Positions 2,593 through 59,770 of a stretch of DNA of 64,000 nucleotides are shown in pieces. Made by a program: the position numbers and the translations under genes. The stretch's first letter is position 1, and every line of letters begins with the position of its first letter. This stretch comes from Pontederia crassipes. Taxonomy: Eukaryota > Streptophyta > Magnoliopsida > Commelinales > Pontederiaceae. The notes beneath the pieces are model-generated. The model saw only the letters and a program-made list of their open reading frames with translations. It did no database searches and had not been told where the DNA came from. The stretch lies in assembly GCA_030549335.1 (NCBI GenBank), contig CM060183.1:35586768-35650767 (forward strand), read 5' to 3'.

Positions 2593-4400
2593 TTGAAGTT
2601 GATGTGTTAATTAATCTTCCTAAAAATTTAAGTTTGTTAAAAAAGATATTAATAATGCATTGAATTTGAATCCAATTATAATCCTAATTGAATATCTACG
2701 TAATCATATGCTTCAACAATAGGGGCGGTCCCAATTGGAATCATCAATATCCGTCCGAGGATGTAGCACAATTTTAAGGTGAACCTAAAAACTCTAGTGT
2801 GTTCTTAGGATGTCTTTCTTCCTCTTTTCGTAACAAAAAATAAATCAAAAATTTTTTATATTCTTCCTATGTCCAACTCCAAGGTGTTTCCCTTTATTTG
2901 CTCTCGCTATTCTCAGCCTTCTTTTGCATTGCTTAATTTTGAACAAGTAGAAGATGGCTGTAAACTCAACTGTTGTTGTTGAATAATATCGAATGGCCTT
3001 TCATCTATCACAAGTTCTGAAGTACCATCATCAAGTTTTTTTTTTCTTGAGAATAATGACTCAACATGCACTTGCATAAAAAAAAAAAGGTAAATGAATT
3101 GTTGCTATACTTGATGCATGCTGAAACAGTAAACCATGGTCGTCTGTCCATGGTTCGACAACACTAGTCCTAGTGAAACAGTTAACTTTGGAGATGCAAA
3201 ATCCATGACCTCATCGAATAAGATTAATCTTCCCAATTAAACAAACCAATGGCCAAAGAAAACAAAGGCAACCACAACTTCTCATCAGCTCGAGATGTCG
3301 TCTCCCAGGTTTCTCACGCACCTAGCTTTATGCAAATACTCATAACTGATGTGAAACAGGCGCCGATGAGGGATCACATTTTCTACTAATTCATCAAATT
3401 TGAAGCCAAAGAATTTGATTCTGAAAGGGGGATTTAAAAGTTAAAAATTGGTACGAAGAGGAGGCGGACACCTGAGATCGACGTCCTCCATGGGCGGATA
3501 TGGGCGCTCTCATACTACTCCAACTCCCGGAAGCCGTTCACCGTGGATCACGTCCCCTCGGGGACTGGAAACCACCGCTCAGCTGCAAGAGAAGGAGCAT
3601 TTCTGTCACTAAATTGGTGGGGGAGATGGGCAGCAGCGTTGACCATTGGCAGATGTTCCTGTACCATTCGTAGGAGCCGGCGATTTGGATACCTGGTAAG
3701 AGTAAGTGGCCCATCGCTTTGCTTCTCGGCTGTCTCCGGGTAGGCTCTGCTAATCCTCGCCTTTTAACCTTGCTCGGTTTTAAACTCGAATCGAGCATCG
3801 AAACTAAAAAAAAACAGAATTTAACCCAAATTTTATTGGGTAAAGGAAGTATACAAAGAACGTTCATGTTCCTTTGATAAGTTAAAGCATTCATAATTAT
3901 TTTAGGGGAGTATAACTTGATCTCATGAATGAATCGTCCTCTCACCGTTCATAAATAAAAATTTTCAAAATTTATGACGATTCAATAATAATTCATATAT
4001 ATGAATCAAGTTTTACCACATAATCTTTATTCTCATTATTTTATTGAATGAAATTTATTTTTAAAAATAAATAGTTACATGATTGAATATGTGATGTTCC
4101 CCAATTTTATTTTTATAATAAAAGAAAAATAAAAAACACCACATCATCTATTTTTAATATTATATACACACACATAATATATATATATATATATATATAT
4201 CGTCACAAAGTCTGTTAATTAATCACGGAACCTGGCTCTTTAATCCATAGATAATTTCATGGTTATTTAGCATTTTAGAACTTACCAAAATCACAAAAGT
4301 GCTTATTGGCCGTCCCAATCACAAATTTACTGAGGAATAGAGAGAGGTACACAAAGCATATATGAAAAGATGAAGTGAACATGCTGCTCATAACAATATT
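2593..4400. other. Intergenic region downstream of the NECAP-like gene
   Basis: The region is mostly AT-rich with an (AT)n run near 4176-4200. An unexplained GC-rich block lies at about 3470-3790. It holds open frames on both strands (minus 3538-3945, plus 3543-3743), but none has a recognisable family or joins to neighbouring exons. It could be an exon fragment of a lost gene or part of a repeat. Confidence 0.4.
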
Positions 4401-7400
4401 TCAGGAAGCCGCCTGAAAATCACCAAAGTCGTCCTCGGCAACCTCAAAGGCAGTCTTTTCAGTTGCAGAAGTTGATTCTCTGGATGGGAGCTCAAATTTT
4501 GCATCGAAATTAGCATCTTCAGCATTGGATCGGGGTGAACTCGTCGGTGACCTCTGGACAGGAGAAAGAGGCGCCGGTGGAGGTTTAAGGGCGATTAAAC
4601 CATCTTTGGAGTTCATTGTATCAACCAAAGAAAGATTGTCCAGGCCCTGCTGCAAAAGTGAAGATTTTCCTTTTTGCCCTCCTTTCTAGCAAAAATAAAA
4701 GAAGGAATAAAGCACGGCATGATTATCATTTACAAGCCAAAAGATGTTTTATTGTTGTGATACGTCAAAGATAAATTTAGCAAGACGAAAAAGCTAATTA
4801 GATAGCAAAGCAGGCAATGCAAATCATGCCATCGTATTTGTCACACAATGTTTTTCTTTTTCGAGTGTTGGAGCTTACATTTTTAATTTGCAGCACAAGG
4901 GTTTCCCCTTCTTTTAAACTATAATCTATTGATGAAGATGTCTGATAATGCTGCTCCATCTCTTCGGCAGTCTTCTTTTTGTTTAGATATCTAGGCAACT
5001 ATAAAGGGCGAACACATAGAAAACTATAGAAGCATACCCATTGAAAACTAGTTTGCAAGAAATCTTATTCATGATCGAACAGGAAAAAAATAAGTCATGG
5101 TTCAATGAGAAGTAGAGTTCCTAAATTATATGCAGCCTGCATAGTGCATAGATAAAGGATACTTCATATGATCATAGAGTGCAGCTTGAAAATCATATGC
5201 TTCAGTCCTTTCACGAAATCCTATGCCTATAAAGGCATGTCTTCGACGACCACCTGCAGGAATTTTACAATATCAGAGAACAGACATATATAACTGAAAA
5301 GTTGTTGTAATCGATTAATGCATGACCTGTTGTTTCGCTGAGTACTTTATTTTTTAGCCCTCAGGAGGAGTTTACCCTTAAACATTGAGTAAATGCATAG
5401 CATAATGCTCTATTGACTGGTTTGAATTGGATAACCCTATTTCTCAATACAGTGTCTAGAAAAAATAAGTTCTCAAGATGTGGAACAGTTTAGAAACCTA
5501 CTAACTTTGACAAGATTCATCACTAGTAAATCCAATCTAAAAGTTGCTCTACTTCTTTTGAGATTCAAATCTTCATTGGAGACATGGCATACACTAGGAT
5601 ATCAATGGTTGAATCTGTCCTCGGCTGCGAACTTCTAGCAATCTTTCCATTATGGAGGCAGACAAAAAGATGTTAGGGTGTCTGTCTCAAGATATAGACA
5701 GGTACTTCCGGTTGCTGCACTGTGGCCTATTTGGTCTGAAAGGAATGCTGTTACATTCAGGGGGGAAAGATGTTTCGTGGACAATATTACCACACGCATG
5801 CAAAATATGGGCCGGAGATTAAGGATGTTTTCTGAGGTAAAGATTAAGGGTGTTGTTGGGGAATGATTTACCTCTAAAATGTCTCAGTTGTAACTTTTTT
5901 TTTCACCACTTCAATAAAATAGGATAGCTACAACCTTGGTAGCTATCCTTTCACTTCTCACAAAAAAAAAATCTTCATTCTCCTTTCCTTCAAAAAAAAA
6001 AGAACACTTTGTTCTTCTAGTGCTATTGATTAGCATTAAGATGAAATTATTTCAATAAAAACCGTTGCCAAATAGAGTCCAGCAATCAAACTCGATGTAT
6101 CACATCCAGACAATTTTTTGTGGGCTTTAACAATTGTCTTGGATCTGACTTTGATGTAAATATACAATAATCCAATGTAGTAATGACATATCAATACTTA
6201 CGAATTCAAAGTGTAGAGTACAACTGAATGATTCAATTTAGTAGTGCACACACATAATTTATGTTACCAAGAGAGATTCACAACTTGTCTTTTTTTAAAA
6301 GCATGATTCACAACTTGTCTTAACTCTAACACATCTGACATAGTAATGAAATATTAATACTTATAAATTGCCTAAAATGTGCAGTTTGGTTTATATATGT
6401 GCGCTTGTGTAGCATATCTACACATGCTTAGATCCTTTATGAATTAGCCACCAGGGAAATTTTCACTATACTTGCTTCAGTTAATAATGTCTTCCATTTT
6501 TAAAACCTAATCTCCTATGGATGAGCCCAGGGGCTTGGTCCTACAGATATCTGAACTATAAAGTTGGACAGAAATTTGGCACCTAAATCCAACGAATAGC
6601 AATGGCTGGTCTAGATTTTTTTTTTGAGAGCTGGCTGGTCTAGAAGTTGTAAAAACATAACATAACTAGAATCATCTTTGCAAACAATAACTCGTCACTG
6701 AAAAGAAAATGAAAACTTTTACCTATATCCTCTTCGACTCGAAGGACAAAGTATCTGGCATAAATGAAATGATGATTCAGTTAGAAATGTACCAAATATG
6801 GTATAACAAGGGGAAGAATTCAAACGGTTACGAAAATAGCCTGCCTTTAAGCAGTGAGACAAAAAGAGACCTGCTACTATCAATTACAGGCTCCACTGGA
6901 TGTGGCTCTCCTTCTCTCAAGAATGCCCTAGCATATAACTCTCCTGTGTGGAAAATTTTAGATGTCAATAAAATAAAATATCATTACTTTTATTAAGCTG
7001 TCCTGAATTGAAAAGATAACTGAACCTGATGTCTTATCCTCCAGTCTAATAATACATTCCTCCCCCCTGCTAATAACCTTTAGCACTCCTTCCCATGCCC
7101 ATTTGTTGACATTCCACTCATCAGCCCTGCAATTCAATTAAGTTTTACAAGGAACCGATGGCAATATTGCTTAGACGAGTTTCATCAATGATGAACAGTG
7201 CAAAGTGAAACTAAAAAAACTAGCAAATCATTAAGAATCAACATATGGGTTCAAGCATTATCAACGGAAAGCAACCTAAATTCTTTCACATCTCATCATC
7301 CTTTGGAATACTCAATTTTAAGAATATTTGGTACCATTACACAAATAACCAAGAAATCTCCAAAAGCTTAAGGCAAACATCCATTTCCCCAAAGGGTCAG

Positions 7401-7940
7401 AAATCACCCAAATTCCACATGATGCAAAAACGATCCAACTATGCATATGTCAAGTTGTCACGGCTGTGGATTACAGTATTACTGGATGGGTCATTCACTT
7501 ATTGTTACGATCCATATGATGAGGAACCACTCAATTGCACAATCGGCCATCTATATGAACAAAATCTCCAAAACATGAGAACTCGTGGACTTCAATTAGA
7601 AAAAGGGAAAAAAAACATATCATCACAAGTCGATCACACCCATAAGATCCCATTATCACACCAACAGATGCAACGACGGTAAAACAAAGATTTCAAAACC
7701 TGTAAGAAGCTGCGGACATCCTGGGAGGTATCTGTCCAAAAAAAGAAAAATCAGATCAAGAACAAAAATGAGTTAGGAACCGGCAATTGGGGATGGCACA
7801 AGAGAACGGAGACGACTGGATCATGTGACTACCAAGTAGACGTAGCACTCGTTGACGTGAAAGAGCACGAGCTCCACCACTTCGGCTTCCTCGCTCTCGC
7901 CTTGTTCCCCCGGAGGCAGGGGGCGCCCTTCCTCCGCCAT
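4401..7940 (-). CDS. NECAP-1: NECAP-like adaptin-ear-binding coat-associated protein (8 exons, 277 aa)
   Basis: I placed exons at 7940-7833, 7731-7700, 7126-7026, 6943-6871, 6754-6723, 5253-5163, 4990-4879 and 4685-4401. All junctions are GT-AG with matching phases, and together they give 277 residues. The protein opens MAEEGRPLPP and then carries the PH-like NECAP (DUF1681) domain over roughly residues 21-155, with the family blocks ECYVYLIPPR, DEWNVNKWAWEG, DSSRYFVLRVEE and AFIGIGFRERTEAYDFQ. A short linker with LKEGETLVLQIKN follows. The tail is Pro/Ser-rich and ends in DDFGDFQAAS, a DFGDF-type peptide of the kind that binds adaptor appendages. NECAP proteins act with AP-2 in clathrin-mediated endocytosis. 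It is close to the Arabidopsis protein At3g58600 as I recall it. Intron 5 is 1.47 kb and holds a LINE fragment. The start is the only ATG that puts the GC-rich first exon in phase. Assignment is firm; the UTRs were not determined. Confidence 0.93.
5578..5970 (+). mobile_element. 5'-truncated LINE (L1-type) insertion in NECAP intron 5
   Basis: A 57-codon stretch ending at 5866 includes PIWSERNAVTFRG, typical of the C-terminal region of plant L1 ORF2 downstream of the reverse transcriptase. A perfect 10-bp stem with a 9-nt loop follows at 5921-5949, and then an A-run at 5961-5970. The sequence AAATCTTCATT occurs at both borders (about 5567-5577 and 5969-5979), consistent with a target duplication. 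Only the last ~390 bp of the element arrived. It lies antisense to the host gene. Confidence 0.75.
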
Positions 7941-28171: not shown

Positions 28172-28407
28172 CTATAAAACATAACAATTCATTTAAATAA
28201 ACAATTCATAACTTTAAAAAAAATCCAAAATACTTCTTACTTTACTTTGTGGCGGTTGAGTGTGGCGGTAGCTCTGGTGGGTGCACATGGACCCAAGGTT
28301 GTTAAAACCGAATCGGACATCGACCCGGCGACTCCTCCGGGTCAGGTCGAACCGGTTGAACCGGTTAAACCGGAGGGTCGAACCGGATATAATAAAATAA
28401 TATTAAA

Positions 28408-28686
28408 CAATAAAGTAATAGCATTTCAAATTTCAAAACATCACATATATATTCAGAATTTCAGATTATAATATCACACACATATTTCAAATTTCAAACT
28501 TGCAATAGATAAACTTGTTTATAGTTTAACAAGATTCATAAGCAATAAAATAGTAGCACTTCAAATTTCAAAACATCACATATATATATTCAGACTTTCA
28601 TATTGTAATATCACACACATATTTCAAACTTCAAAGTTCAAACTTGCAATAGATAAACTTGTTTATAGTTTAACAAGATCCATAAG
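28408..28686. repeat. Two-copy tandem repeat (~134-bp period) in the hAT 3' region
   Basis: The block starting AATAGCATTTCAAATTTC near 28420 is repeated as GTAGCACTTCAAATTTC near 28553. The two copies share CACATATATATTCAGA, ATCACACACATATTTCAAA and AATAGATAAACTTGTTTATA, with small differences. It is non-coding and lies between the transposase stop and the left terminus. Confidence 0.8.
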
Positions 28687-28802
28687 TTGTGTCTTGCAAA
28701 TGATAACAAGGTTTTAATGCCTTCCAAAATAAAGTTATAAATAAACACACCAATGTTTATAAGTTTAAACGTTCACAACTTCATGCTTCCAAAATCACAA
28801 TG

Positions 28803-31293
28803 TCATTTTCTTCTCCAATATTCTTCATCATCACGAGGAAAAGAATCTAAATTAAAATCCAATGCTTCAACATTATCTTCTTGCACATCACCTAAATAAA
28901 ACATATAAAAAAGTTACAATCAAATTCATAATAATTAATCATTCAAAAGCTTTAAAATGATAATTAAATTTTACCTTCATGATTGATATTCTTTGGAACT
29001 TCCAAATCTGTATAAAGCATTTTCTCTATTTCATCATAATCAAGTAATGGAGTGTCATCTTCCTCTGCAATCCATGATTCAATTTTCTCCATGCTCTCAT
29101 AGTCAATAGGATCTAAAAGTGCTTTCTCTTTGTTAAGAGCCCTATAAATATAACAGAATAAATAAGCATGTTTTTAAAAAAGAGTAGATAAGCATACTTT
29201 TTTGTAACTTGTAACAAAGTAAACAAACCTATTTTTCAATCCCAAATTATAATGAACATATACAAGATCATTTAATCTTTTGTGCTCTAATTTGTTTCTT
29301 CTTTTTGAATGTATTCTTTCAAATACACTCCAATTTCTTTCACAACCAGAAGAAGACGCCGTTTGACTTAACAATCGAATTGCCAATTGTGACACTAATG
29401 GAGCACTAAATCCAAAGCTACGCCACCATTGATCTATCATACAAACAATATAAAGAAAGTTAAAAATATCATAAATCTAAGAAAATTATTAACAAAAATT
29501 AAGAAATTTAGAAACTTACCGGGTCTCAATTCCTTAGCCGTCTCAATAGCTAAGTGATTACTAAAACTTTGTAGTCGATCATGATACAACCAACTTTGTT
29601 TTAAAAATTCAGTCTTGTGATTTGTAATAAGAGCATCCAACACCTCAAGCCATCCTTGTTGAACCTCAGGTTTTATACAAAAAGTGTCTTTATCATAATA
29701 GAATGCGGGATTCAAAAAATATGCAGCACAATGAATCTTTTTTCGAAGTTGATTATCCCATCTTTGCTTGATGATTCTTGTATAAGGCTTGTACAAAGAT
29801 TTTCTATTCATCAGTATTCTTTTAATTGTTTTCTTTGCTCTATAAATGTCATCATACACATATCCAAGAGAAGGTCTATCATCACCATCAACAATTCTTA
29901 ATAGACGAACCAAATGTGATACAATTTGCACAATAATACCACAATCATTCCAAAATTTACTATCCAAAACAACATCCATAACAATCTTAGCTTTCTTATC
30001 ACGATAATATCTTGAGCTTGTAAAATCCACACTTGTCACCAAAGCTTGCAAGTCAAGTTTATGATCACTGATACTCTTTAATGCAATAAATGTTGTTGCA
30101 AAACGAGTTGGTCCAGGACGTAAAATTTCAGCCCACTGTGGTCTTTTTCTTAACCATGCAAGCAAAAAAGGATGATTATAAATAGATTGTGTTACCTTAG
30201 ATGCTTTTTCTGTTAAGCTCTTCACAAACTCCATTTTGCCAATATCTGCTAAGATCAAATTCAGACAATGGGCAGCACAAGGAGACCAAAAAATGGAAGG
30301 AAACTTTTCATTCAACAACCTACCAGCAGCTTTATAATTTGCAGCATTATCAGTAACTAAGTGCACAACATTAGAAGCTCCAGCAAATTCAACCAAGTCC
30401 ACAAATAAATTGCAAAGAGTTGCAGCATCCTTAACAACATCAGAAGCATCAACTGATCTGACAAAGCAAATTCCTTTTGGAGAGTAAATAAGAAAATTTA
30501 TTAGCTGTCTATTTTTTTTATCTTGCCAACCATCGCCCATAATAGTGCAACCAGTTTCTTTCCAAGCACTTCTAAATGTTTCAACCAACATTCCAACTTC
30601 CTTCTTAATGTCATACAATAATTTGGTTCTAATGGAATGATAAGAAGGTCCTATATATCCTGGACCAATAGCTGCAATAGCATCTATCATAGGTTGATAA
30701 TAAATAGAATTGACGCAATTAAATGAGATACAACAATCATAAAAAAATCTAGCGACAGCCAAATCAGCTCGATGTATAGCTTCTTTACTTGCCAATGCAC
30801 TTTTAATAGAAGGTTGTGCACCTGGAGTGGTTCTTGGAGCAAAAAAACTATTTATTATCTCTTTGCCCTTCCCCTTAGCTTGACTTGGAATAATTGGAGT
30901 TTCTTGACTTTGCAAAATATGTGTATTCATATCTGATTGCTCACTAGAATTATCTGCTCCTCTTTGATCAAGTGCTCTTTTTTTGGATGCAGACGTAGAT
31001 TTTAGAAGTTCTCCAAGTTGATATCGCACGTCATAGCTAACTTTTGTACAAGCCAATGCATCACCTTTTTGTCCTACAAGATGCATTTTCATCCTATGTA
31101 TTCCTCCACCTTTGAAAATCTTTGCACAATATAAGCATTTCAAAACTTTCTTTCCTTCTGTGTCATAACAAATTTGACAATGCTCCCATGTAGGATCAGA
31201 CTTTAATCTAACTGACTGAGTGCTTGCAACTACCGATTGAGTGCTTGTCGCAATTGATTGTGATTCACCAGCACTACTTCCACCCGAAGCCAT
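28803..31293 (-). CDS. hAT transposase (BED zinc finger, DUF659, hAT dimerisation; 4 exons, 744 aa)
   Basis: Exons 31293-29520, 29433-29229, 29141-28975 and 28891-28803 join with GT-AG introns and matching phases to an uninterrupted 744-residue protein. Residues ~40-100 form a BED-type zinc finger (WEHCQICYDTEGKKVLKCLYC ... MKMHL). A DUF659 block follows, with GCTIMGDGWQDKKNRQLINF and the acidic motif LVTDNAANYKAAG. The C-terminus has the hAT dimerisation region: SAPLVSQLAIRLLSQTASSS, CERNWSVFERIHSKRRNKLE, LNDLVYVHYNL. The tail is acidic. The DDE-type acidic positions appear to be kept. Transcription would start on the high-coordinate side and pass the long palindrome at 31528-31869. Start at MASGGSSAGES; an upstream in-frame ATG (31326) is possible. 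Confidence 0.9.
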
Positions 31294-31527
31294 TTTCTTA
31301 CAAAAGAAATATAAAAGACTAATCAATGCCTCTAATAAAAGTTACTTCAATAACAATGAAATTTACAAACATTTGAATCATGAATTGAAGAAAAAAAGAG
31401 ACAACATGGCGCGGACCACTCTGTCATGGCGGTCGTGCTGCCCCTGCAAAGGCAACGATGAGTTTCGAGTTGCGACCATGGCATAGCTCCGACGCATGCC
31501 GTCAAATGGCGCGGCGGTTGGACGCGA

Positions 31528-31869
31528 TCGTCATGGCGGCCGTGCTGCCCCTGCAAGGTCATCGTCAAGCTGCGGCCATGGCGTAGCTTCGACGCACGGC
31601 GTCGGATGGCGCAACGGTTGGACGAGGGTCGTCATGGCCGCCGTGCTGCCCCTGCAAGGTCACCGACGAGCTCCGACCACGGCGCAGCTCCGACGCATGT
31701 GCGTCGGAGCTGCGCCGTGGTCGGAGCTCGTCGGTGACCTTGCAGGGGCAGCACGGCGGCCATGACGACCCTCGTCCAACCGTTGCGCCATCCGACGCCG
31801 TGCGTCGAAGCTACGCCATGGCCGCAGCTTGACGATGACCTTGCAGGGGCAGCACGGCCGCCATGACGA
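31528..31869. repeat. Perfect 170-bp inverted repeat with 2-nt spacer
   Basis: Positions 31528-31697 are the exact reverse complement of 31700-31869, with only TG between them; the centre reads CGACGCA-TG-TGCGTCG. I compared the arms base by base and found no mismatch. The arms are GC-rich, unlike the AT-rich transposase gene. The left arm together with 31421-31527 consists of tandem units of ~101-108 bp, each starting TCATGGCGG(T/C)CGTGCTG or a close variant. Transcribed from either side it would form a long hairpin. Confidence 0.95.
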
Positions 31870-32434
31870 CCGTCGTCTGGTGATCCAAGCGAAGCTTTGT
31901 TCGCCGTGGCTGACCGTGAAGATAACGATTTGGGAAGCGATTCGAAAATCGGAAAACATACAAGTACAACTTACTTGAGTTGATGGCCGTTGACACGCGA
32001 GATGCACTGCCGGCGAGCAACCACCGGCCGTCAATGAGATCGATGGAACTTGGAAGTCGACAAACACAGAACCAGGCAGCTTCGAAATCCCAATCGGCGA
32101 GGGCGAACGCGAAATCAAAATGAAAAATTAGGGCCGGCTTCACATTTTAATTTTTTTCCCAATTTTGAACCGGCCGGTCGACGTAAAACCGCCGGTTCGA
32201 CGGTTTTATCCGGTTTTAGCCGGGTTTTGACCGGTCTTGACCGGTTCGAAGCGGTCTAAATTCGAATCCGGTTTTGGGGTCGAACCAAACCCGCCTTTAG
32301 TGCCGGGCGACGGTTGGACCGGTCGGACCGGCCGGTCCGGTCCGGTCCAAACAACCTTGCATGGACCATACTTAACATATGCTCTATATCTAGGAAGTCA
32401 AGAGAGTCCTATCGTTAGGCTCTGATACCATAAA

Positions 32435-34941
32435 TGTAACACCCCGAAATTCGACCCCGCCACGTGGCGAGATCTCCTTTCGGTCGTTACTTTCTTTGAT
32501 TTTTCTTTGACTCTTTTATTGATTCAAAGGGTCAATAAGAGTGACACGTAAGCGGAAGACTTAAATAATAAAATATTATACAATGATATAAAGAAATGCG
32601 GAAGCTAAATAAACAAAAGGTACATCAATGTCTCACATAGGCATATAAAGGTCCATGCCATAATACAACACTATAGGTTCCATCCAAATGAAAATACAAC
32701 TCGATATGCTGAAAGATAAAGACTCCATCTAGACCATACGATAACCATGTGCACACGCCATCAAACTGTAGTCGCCGCACAAACATCAACACGGCATGCA
32801 TCCATATCAAGTACCTGTGGGGATCACACAGGGGAGCAAGCTCAATCGTTAGCATAAAGTTAAGTGTGAGTTCGTATAAATCATAGATTAGTTCCATCAG
32901 AATAAAGATGATGTAATCATGGAAATCAAGTATAAGAATGAATCATAGTAGAGGAGTCGATAAGAAGAATCATAGTTCATACTTTTTCATTTTCTTTCTT
33001 TTTCATATACAGTCTCATGTTCATTGTTCATATTCATGTTCATAAGGACAAAGTCCTTTTATTCATCTTTTGTCATTCATGTTATTTCATCATATTTATA
33101 TTTTAGAAGAGCTCTTCTTCTTTTAGGGGAATATCATTGCAGGCACACCAGCGTGCATCTATCTAGACCATGGTGAGCCAGTGGGGGATCAGTGCCACGG
33201 CAAGTGCCCCTCGAGCAAGATGACCTCGCATAAAGCGGAAATATCCGTAGGGAAAAAACTCCCATCTAGATAGGCAATTGATAACCCTCCTTCTTATATT
33301 TCATGGACCTATCTTTTGATCCCTCGGATCAATCAAGACCGTAAGGAGCAGAGGAAGCTCCAAATCATCTTTAGGTCCATATCTTTCATTATTAATCAAG
33401 TGGATAGAAACTTATCGAAATCAAGGTGTTTAGGTTAAAGTCGAAATCTTTCTATCCACAAATCGGACGTCCGAAGGTCGAGCGGTCGTCCGATTGGAGT
33501 TCATTAAGTGGACGTCCGAAAAGAAAGCGAACGTCCATTTATCAATATTTTTTTCAATCGATATGAAGGTGAGCAGTCGTCCGAATTCGGGATTGAACAT
33601 TAGGTATTGGATCCTATCTCTTGAGCATCAAGGAAACTAAGCAAAAGAATAAGCGCACATTGAATCAAACATATATATATAATTCCTTTATCACTACCCT
33701 TACATATTTCCTGCATATGTGATTATAGAATTTATGGAGAAACAATCAAATGATAATTATGTAATAAATTACTTTCTAATTATGTGTAAGATATCATCAT
33801 CAGATATAATAGGAGTATAATAACACTACAAGGACAGATCATTATGTATAATGGTTGAATCATAAGTTAGGTAAATCAATATCATAGGTGTCACTGCCAG
33901 CATTCTTCCCACCATGCAATTTACACATAGCTGTCGACACCACTTTTTCCTTGTTGCCAAATAAACAACTTAAGATTTGTACCCACTCTCTTTATCTCAC
34001 TGACAACCAACGTGACAGCATTCTAATCATAGCATTTCTAACATTTGAAGCCATTTACATGTTACCACCACAACATCATGATTTTTAAGCATATCATTAT
34101 TAACACAGCAACAATGGCTAATCTAGATTTCTAAAAAAAAAACGCAAACATGCATCATATGATCATTTATCATGTTACGGTGCGAAATCATGCATGAGTG
34201 GTAAGGACCAACATGATAGGCCAAATATGCACTTTCTAAAATTAAATTAATATATACAATATGCATGTCTAGGCAGAATAATCATTAAATCAGTAGTACA
34301 TGAATAAGAACAACATCACGACAGATCTCGCGTGATAATGATTATCTTGTGTTAAGCCGTTATCATCACCGACGAGACAAAATGCACAACATATATGTGT
34401 TCCTTGTAGGGTTCAACTCGGTGAAACCAAGCATATAAGTAGAAAGAAGCTCATCACGAAATCTTACAATAAATTCTAAATTTATGCAAGTTCGGTCCAG
34501 ATGATTTTCTACCCATTTCAGCATGGATTTTAAATCTTAAAATTAGTCTTTAAAGCATGCAAATCATTCAGAAATTATCCTATGATCCAGATTCCGAAAA
34601 TACACCTCTTGTAGACAAGTCTCGATCGAATCTCCGAATGATGTCGTGCTAGTTGTGTCTCGCTCTTCCTCCTTGTGCTCTCGTGTCTACAGCGCCTGCA
34701 GGGACTCCTTCCTCTGCCCCAAGTTGTGCCGTGAAGTCAAAACTCAAAAAAAAAAAAAAACAATGAAGCCAAATGATAAATGGAAAGGGACGAGAGAGGA
34801 GAAGTTAAATGGAGCTTTAAATTGCCAGGAGATTTCAACTTTTGAACTCTCTGATCTATGGAGGAAAAAGGGGATAATTGGGTATAATGATGCATTAATA
34901 CAAAGATTTGATTTTTATTTTTTTTAATGCAGTGCGTTACA
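32435..34941 (-). repeat. 5' LTR of the Gypsy element
   Basis: This 2507-bp LTR begins TGTAACACCCCGAAATTCG and ends GTGCGTTACA, followed by the CCGGG duplication. It contains repeated GGACGTCCGA motifs near 33467-33520, shared with the other LTR. Confidence 0.93.
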
Positions 34942-44917: not shown

Positions 44918-46441
<1,524 letters not shown>

Positions 46442-59154: not shown

Positions 59155-59770
59155 CTTTTACCGACGGTCCTAACCGTCGGTAAAATGGCCAGATCCGTCG
59201 AAAATCACCATTTCCGATGGTTCTTTCGACGGACAGTGTCCGTGCGAAAAAGGGGCGTCGCAAACATTTTGCGACGGTTTCTTCTGAACCGTCGGTATTA
59301 CAGACGGTCTAGCTGGCGGGCGCGGCAGTCGAACATTGAGTATCGACGGGACGAACCGTTGATATTATCGACGGTTAGGACCGCCAATATATATCGACGG
59401 TTTGAACCGACAATAGTATTGACGGTTCGTGCCGTCGATATTTATCGACGGCTTAAACCGTCGATAGTATCGGCGGTTCGTGCCGTCGATATCTATCGGT
59501 GGCTTGAACCGTGGATACTATCGACGGTTTTAACCGTTGATATATATTGGCGTCTTAAACCGTCGATAGTATCGACGGTTTAAGTGCCAATAATCTTGTA
59601 TCGATAGTATCGACGGTTCAAACCATCGACAATCTTGTATCGACGGTTTTACTCGTGGGCTACGACCGTCGATAATTCTGTATCGATGGATATAACCGTC
59701 GGTAAGTATCGAAAAAATCCGTTGAATATTGTAATATTTCAGCTGTTTCCGACAGTCAGGACCGTCGAAA
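59155..59770. repeat. CACTA subterminal repeat array
   Basis: More than twenty copies of CGACGGTT or AACCGTCG and near variants occur in both orientations, mostly spaced ~15-35 bp and often paired as small palindromes (CGACGGTTTGAACCGTCG type). Such arrays are the binding sites of the CACTA accessory protein. The 132-codon frame at 59185-59583 is a by-product of the array. Confidence 0.9.

Follow-up and report, generated by a model that had tools for sequence, protein, structure and literature searches.

A Family-wide Palindrome in the Leader of a Plant hAT Transposon, with Rearrangements Located at Its Center

The leader of a hAT transposon of Pontederia crassipes contains a long palindrome that probably arose as an inverted duplication and has been inherited since, with arm-to-arm copying maintaining its symmetry in the active lineage of the transposon and with breakage at its center, followed by error-prone rejoining, removing it from daughter copies. 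This reading comes from a comparison of the copy in the window (the whole 64,000-nucleotide stretch of DNA that was analyzed) with other copies of the same family in the genome of the source plant.

Results

The host of the palindrome is a complete hAT element of 4,066 bp on the minus strand of the window (28294–32359), delimited by its termini and identified by its Pfam domains. The features by which hAT elements are recognized are all present: an 8-bp target-site duplication (CATGGACC, at 28286–28293 on the left and 32360–32367 on the right), short inverted termini (10-bp inverted repeats, CAAGGTTGTT/AACAACCTTG), and the domains PF05699, DUF659, and zf-BED. The main exon of the transposase, counted from its ATG, occupies 29437–31293 on the minus strand and includes the zf-BED and DUF659 domains; toward its 3′ end it probably extends into an intron. 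It is followed by the C-terminal exon region (29177–29434, minus strand), which includes the Dimer_Tnp_hAT domain (PF05699, E = 2.5e-13). When the transposase exon was compared with PDB sequences, just two weak and irrelevant ribosomal matches were obtained (E = 0.4 and 0.53), and in a search of positions 28200–32500 no Rfam family reached its gathering score. The insertion site adjoins the gag end of a Ty3-type retrotransposon. Because the transposase is on the minus strand and its ATG is at 31293–31291, the palindrome lies in the transposase leader, upstream of the start codon, where the initial annotation had placed it.

The left arm of the palindrome (31528–31697, plus strand) is the exact reverse complement of the right arm (31700–31869, minus strand), with 170 of 170 bases complementary. 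The two arms are separated by a TG spacer (31698–31699), the exact 2-nt length of which, in the window copy, rests on one assembly. The perfect palindrome first reported for this region was therefore recovered in full. A single mismatch, at 31527/31870, permits extension of the arms to 173 bp (172/173), and the mismatched base of the window copy, A at 31527, is also found in the left arms of two other copies, L044 and L048. The arms have a base composition of 69% G+C and hold ~1.7 units of a 101-nt tandem repeat, in agreement with the earlier description of them as built of repeats: the left arm comprises most of unit U2 together with U3, the right arm comprises U3 and U2 in inverted orientation, and a further unit, U1 (31423–31524, plus strand), lies outside the palindrome. 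The spacings of the units in the leader are 107 and 101 nt. The rest of the leader and the right end of the element follow at 31870–32359 (minus strand). As minus-strand single-stranded RNA, the segment 31520–31880 has a predicted fold of −429.8 kcal/mol (z = −42.9 as compared with 100 shuffles).

A 5′-UTR intron running from 31974 to 31297 on the minus strand is predicted to contain the entire palindrome. Its putative donor, CAA/GTAAGT, and acceptor, TTTTGTAAG/AAAATGG, were judged against the plant splice-site consensus. The donor at 31974 was the only donor-like site found in the leader in a pattern scan, and of 34 scanned sequences 16 contain the donor motif and 24 the acceptor motif. In L034 and three copies closely similar to it the donor is GTAAAT, which is weaker than GTAAGT, so that the site is weakened in the youngest copies. 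Since splicing would probably remove the palindrome from the transposase transcript, its presence need not prevent translation; a long hairpin acting as a translational block was considered and is less likely given the predicted intron.

Copies of the family were collected from the source plant's own 1.13-Gb genome, with the leader minus the palindrome arms (31870–32359) as the query. Among 646 first-look candidates 40 were scored, and all copy counts given here are lower bounds. An identity of at least 83% over at least 445 of the 490 bases was required for inclusion, which gave 28 rows including the window copy; all 28 were classified, and the remaining 12 scored rows, which are more distant or shorter, were left out of the classification. 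(i) Both arms are kept in six copies, namely the window copy, L046, and L034, L037, L038, and L039. In the last four, designated the L034 group, the right arm contains a gap of 7 bp, and the arms are perfect over 146 bp around a 12-nt spacer. (ii) Six copies (L027, L035, L041, L043, L044, and L047) keep the leader-side stretch of the right arm. (iii) The right arm is nearly all gone in another six (L022, L031, L033, L036, L042, and L049). (iv) The left arm is damaged or missing in five (L024, L026, L048, L052, and L054), and L052 additionally lacks the inner right arm. (v) Most of both arms is gone in four, comprising L051, L053, L055, and the copy at 24.47 Mb of C6 (L061 and L062). (vi) L040 has an insertion at the palindrome center.

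An inverted unit of at least 26 nt was detected in 18 of the 28 copies, and in all 18 copies with an inverted arm the right arm meets the leader at the same place. Units in both orientations are also present in the more diverged L056, L057, and L058. Among the 15 copies in which both ends were read, nine are each flanked by their own exact 8-bp target duplication, and the copies therefore represent separate insertions. The target duplications of L043 and L044 match at seven of eight bases, that of L041 is one base off under the boundary used, and that of L047 shows no match. Because similar palindromes are present elsewhere, several of them with their own target duplications, the palindrome at the level of the family is not an assembly error. 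The initial annotation had named absence from all other members of the family as evidence against its reading; the comparison of copies shows that the foldback, whole or in part, is present in many of them.

In two additional matches, L059 and L060, the similarity is confined to the final 216 bp of the right end (87% identity) and does not include the palindrome stretch; among the matches listed there are at least nine short ones of this kind. From their sequences L059 and L060 look like members of a related hAT family. They were considered as non-autonomous relatives that might show whether the palindrome is required in cis, and were set aside, only 216 bp being common and the family being apparently another. 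In the leader of one copy, L048, a right-arm segment is tandemly repeated with a period of 137 nt.

The window copy is young. A three-point comparison assigned ~11 substitutions over 3,060 bp to its branch, corresponding to roughly 0.3 million years at 1.3e-8 substitutions per site per year, the rate for rice. At this divergence 1.2 substitutions are expected in the 346 bp of the window arms, with a chance of 0.29 that there would be none, and therefore the arms need no special upkeep after insertion; the one mismatch observed between them is that at 31527. The palindrome had been described as either very recent or maintained, and each term turns out to apply to a different part of the history: the insertion is young, whereas the palindrome is old and family-wide and its arms appear to have been homogenized.

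Comparison of the copies shows that the two arms change in concert. When the close group was compared with the outgroup copies, with groups chosen after the alignment had been viewed and with "fixed" defined as a 75% majority, three positions differed in the left arms and four in the right arms, and all three left-arm differences were matched by the same bases on the right (P = 7e-6, 152 comparable sites). Because two of these three shared differences are transversions (T/A and G/C), shared deamination is a poor explanation of the paired changes. Two other group comparisons gave P = 0.04 and 0.02, with one shared site each. Both arms of the L034 group have two bases that are absent from both arms of the window copy; one of the two, at alignment column 76, recurs outside the group, in L044 in both arms and in L046, L054, and L027 in a single arm each. 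The one right-arm group difference, among the four, that has no match on the left is at column 5, and this marker is common to the right arms of the outgroup copies and missing from their left arms. The identical outer junction and the restriction of the column 5 marker to right arms argue for a single origin of the palindrome with later exchange between its arms. An AU test of all left arms as one clade gave p = 0.062, with 20 of 25 inner branches unresolved and the bootstrap not settled, and the tree-based rejection of independent arm evolution is therefore only borderline. The arms of L034 are identical at 164 of 166 aligned bases apart from the 7-bp gap, those of L046 differ at 18 of 173, and those of older copies are ~10% different. 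The simple reading of these sequences is that exchange keeps the arms alike in the transposing lineage and that they drift once a copy is no longer refreshed.

A rearrangement of at least ~60 bp is present in the palindrome in 22 of the 28 copies (22 of the 27 besides the window copy). The deletions range in size from 62 to ~545 nt, and all 22 rearrangements touch or span the palindrome center. An endpoint lies within 10, 15, 20, 30, 40, or 50 nt of the center in 9, 12, 13, 17, 17, and 17 of the 22, respectively (P = 1e-3, 2e-4, 9e-4, 1e-4, 0.006, and 0.056 in the same order), under a null of random placement in which each rearrangement still spans the center; the test was repeated at these six cut-offs after an initial one of 28 nt, which had been set when the endpoints had been seen (the widest being 28). 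Five of the 22 have no endpoint near the center. The deletions extend into the right arm in 13 cases and into the left arm in four (P = 0.049), and by manual count the right arm is partly or wholly absent from 18 of the 22 rearranged copies. Eight outgroup deletions were placed on L046 and five others on a reference that is one T short at the center; restoring this T to the reference shifted the nine close-group endpoints by 0–6 nt. The left endpoint of L024 was placed by hand, and within repeats the position of a deletion is ambiguous by a few bases.

Microhomology was measured on nine of the 22 junctions, those of the close group. Seven of the nine have 0–4 nt of microhomology and no filler, and two have 3–4 nt of filler; at the L036 junction the microhomology is 1 nt. 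The endpoints of the 22 rearranged alleles are all distinct, each allele being observed at one locus only, whereas the whole form of the palindrome in the L034 group occupies four loci (five if L040, which has it in part, is counted). The deletion in the window copy was counted apart from the 22: between the arm bases that are separated by 32 nt in L034 it has 2 nt, and thus lacks 30 central nucleotides, near-symmetrically. In L045 and L050, which are outside the 28, the palindrome ends at the center and is followed by unrelated sequence. The insert at the center of L040 is 4.85 kb long (oriented ~3000–7850) and has 275-bp direct end repeats that are 99.6% alike; judged by these repeats alone, it is probably an LTR retrotransposon. 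No target duplication is evident for the insert and part of the right arm is gone, as if it had been captured at a break.

In the 12 close copies, over the 3.06 kb of element body that was compared, an indel of at least 20 bp is present in one copy (L035), and a deletion of at least 20 bp is present in the 0.38-kb palindrome in eight of the 12 (manual count; the near-identical L034 group makes up four of the 12). As judged from these alignments, the palindrome is a hotspot of rearrangement.

Discussion

The features of the family would be explained by the following history. Part of the 101-nt tandem array in the leader of an ancestral hAT element would have been inverted and duplicated once, and the resulting palindrome would have been carried by the transposing lineage ever since. 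Now and then one arm may have been copied onto the other, which would give near-identical arms that change together. In daughter copies the palindrome would extrude a hairpin or cruciform and break at or near its center, and the broken end would be resected mainly into one arm and joined again through little or no homology. In the window element, a young copy, just the 30 central nucleotides would have been lost, and the perfect 170-bp palindrome is what remains. On this account the palindrome probably has no function of its own.

Independent formation of the palindrome within the various subfamilies, through template switching that copies the left arm, would account directly for the symmetric changes, arm identity then being a record of repeated formation. 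A small hairpin (CCGACGC-ATG-GCGTCGG or near) is present in U2 and in U3 of L034, where it is at the inner end of the arm, and not in U1, a distribution that favors such switching. The right-hand junction is nevertheless identical in all 18 copies with an inverted arm, and the column 5 marker is common to the right arms of the outgroup, so that we regard repeated formation as distinctly unlikely. A snap-back origin from the U2/U3 hairpin was also considered and not adopted: the fuller center of L034 is a few bases beyond the hairpin, and the first event is undated. As the source of the deletions, replication slippage, whether from unit to unit or over a hairpin, is a minor possibility beside center breakage. 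The tandem units could act as slippage partners, the microhomologies at the junctions are short, and slippage over a hairpin could yield similar deletions without a break. Slippage between units, however, would remove ~101 nt in register, whereas the observed sizes are spread over the range given above and the events cluster at the center; L045 and L050 also end there with unrelated sequence beyond, and L040 has its probable retrotransposon at the same place. That the window palindrome is an artefact of assembly or read foldback is extremely improbable. Its precise center is known from one assembly only, but homologous palindromes with separate target duplications are present at other loci, the right flank in the window continues to the terminal repeat, and the center differs from that of L034 by a 30-nt deletion and not by a read fold.

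The palindrome could also be a built-in fragile site that is required by the active lineage, such that only its bearers transpose and center breakage retires the others; we consider this improbable. The main exon is open in all five whole-palindrome copies and in three of nine other close copies (P = 0.03), a difference that is confounded with age. This comparison covers 14 close copies, of which four of the five whole ones are near-identical, with L024, L026, and L051 left out; the main exon was read to the first stop only, and reading lengths of 618 and 706 codons differ in the apparent intron. Distinct rearranged alleles and a multiplied whole form leave room for a requirement in cis, and a master-copy model explains them equally well.

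The initial annotation proposed that transcription of the leader would give a long hairpin RNA, from which Dicer would produce small RNAs that silence the family, in the manner of Mu killer. The palindrome is predicted to be within the transcribed leader, its RNA would fold perfectly with the energy given above, and some inverted arm is retained in 18 of the 28 copies. Differences of the C-to-T type, compared between the left arm plus U1 and the element body with small counts and as an indirect proxy for small-RNA methylation, are more frequent in the left arms at CG (7/676 versus 1/659, P = 0.07), the direction expected of a small-RNA methylation hotspot, but are less frequent there at CHH (0/654 versus 52/7,270, P = 0.02) and not in excess overall (12/1,643 versus 75/8,945 C/G site-copies, P = 0.77); the values at CHG are 5/313 and 22/1,016 (P = 0.65). 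In addition, the copies that are most alike and have multiplied recently (L034 and L037–L039) have whole palindromes. Mu killer of maize, as described, is a single rearranged locus with inverted transposase coding sequence that acts as a dominant silencer (PMC3440606). It shares with the present case an inverted duplication in a DNA transposon family, whereas the inverted sequence of the hAT element is non-coding leader and is present in many copies. The arms lie outside the transposase exons; because no transposase sequence is inverted, the palindrome is not a Muk-type locus, and because the arms are leader, RNAs made from them would reach just leader or promoter homology. With arms of non-coding leader and no overall C-to-T excess, the proposed silencing hairpin is not borne out, and we judge it unlikely. 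The family does offer material in which to test whether hairpins of transposons give rise to silencing in plants.

The suggestion that no known feature type explains the palindrome was too strong, as rearrangement by center breaks and conversion between arms are both already known. The original work on center breaks is that of two papers, from 1997 and 2003, cited in PMC8701086. In mouse germ-line and cell transgene palindromes, rearrangements at the center, mostly deletions, are described as breaking the symmetry and stabilizing the palindrome (PMC8701086). The hAT palindrome resembles these in the central position of its rearrangements and in end-joining junctions with little homology. It differs in being natural, in residing in a plant transposon, and in being present in many copies, and its deletions are larger than those described for the transgenes and mostly one-sided. 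The human palindromic AT-rich repeat (PATRR) found at translocation breakpoints is reported to break at its center, and deletion-shortened alleles are present in the population (PMC4940405). Shortened alleles and apparent breakage at the center are features of the hAT palindrome also; as compared with the PATRR as portrayed in that paper, its arms are GC-rich, it has been spread by transposition, and no reciprocal translocation is shown.

The palindromes of sex chromosomes have arms that are far larger than those described here. Conversion is reported to keep their arms alike while both evolve (PMC3723533, PMC8981503, PMC7023750). The hAT arms are likewise near-identical within a copy and change together, but they are 170-odd bp in length, contain no genes, and are within a mobile element. 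An inverted repeat associated with a hAT element has been described previously, namely a Ds with an adjacent 598-bp inverted repeat that was proposed to have arisen at transposition (PMC1978519). That repeat, from its description, is outside the terminal repeat, whereas the palindrome of the window element is internal and inherited. Elements of the foldback type have long terminal inverted repeats built of repeats. The window element was considered as one of these and rejected, its palindrome being internal, ~490 bp from the right end, and its termini being 10 bp. The ends of Tam3 contain hairpins that have been linked to gap repair. These ends are also reported to be methylated.

Among the open-access matches listed, no paper described a plant hAT element with such a palindrome throughout its family. 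The component processes are known, and what is new is their combination in a dispersed and datable plant transposon family. In the papers examined, long palindromes have been studied mostly at single human loci, on sex chromosomes, and in engineered constructs; here transposition has spread one palindrome to 28 or more sites of a single plant genome. Because the copies can be dated by substitutions and target duplications, the natural rates of breakage and copying, their polarity, and the types of junction are measurable without experiment.

Several minor observations were made on the family and on the window. A bias toward C-to-T changes, including at CHG, is expected of methylated plant transposons. 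In the bodies of nine close copies, 75 of 116 differences from the majority are of the C-to-T type, with the highest rate at CHG. L037 (C5:22.38 Mb, minus strand) and L038 (C5:21.02 Mb, plus strand) differ at one base in 4,096, and their target duplications are swapped (CCCGTCAC/CCAAAGAA and the reverse), a pattern that would indicate inversion of the 1.36 Mb separating the two, either real or an assembly error. One of these two sites, with its outer flanks joined, has 18 other uninterrupted matches with 81–87% identity over at least 398 of 400 bases. Elsewhere in the window, positions 59341–59581 contain a tandem array whose 25/51-nt unit forms a palindrome in its own right (TATCGACGGTT..AACCGTCGATA), amounting to ~9.5 copies of the 25-nt unit, and positions 45204–45342 contain two adjoining perfect trinucleotide runs, 18 repeats of ATT followed by 29 of TTG.
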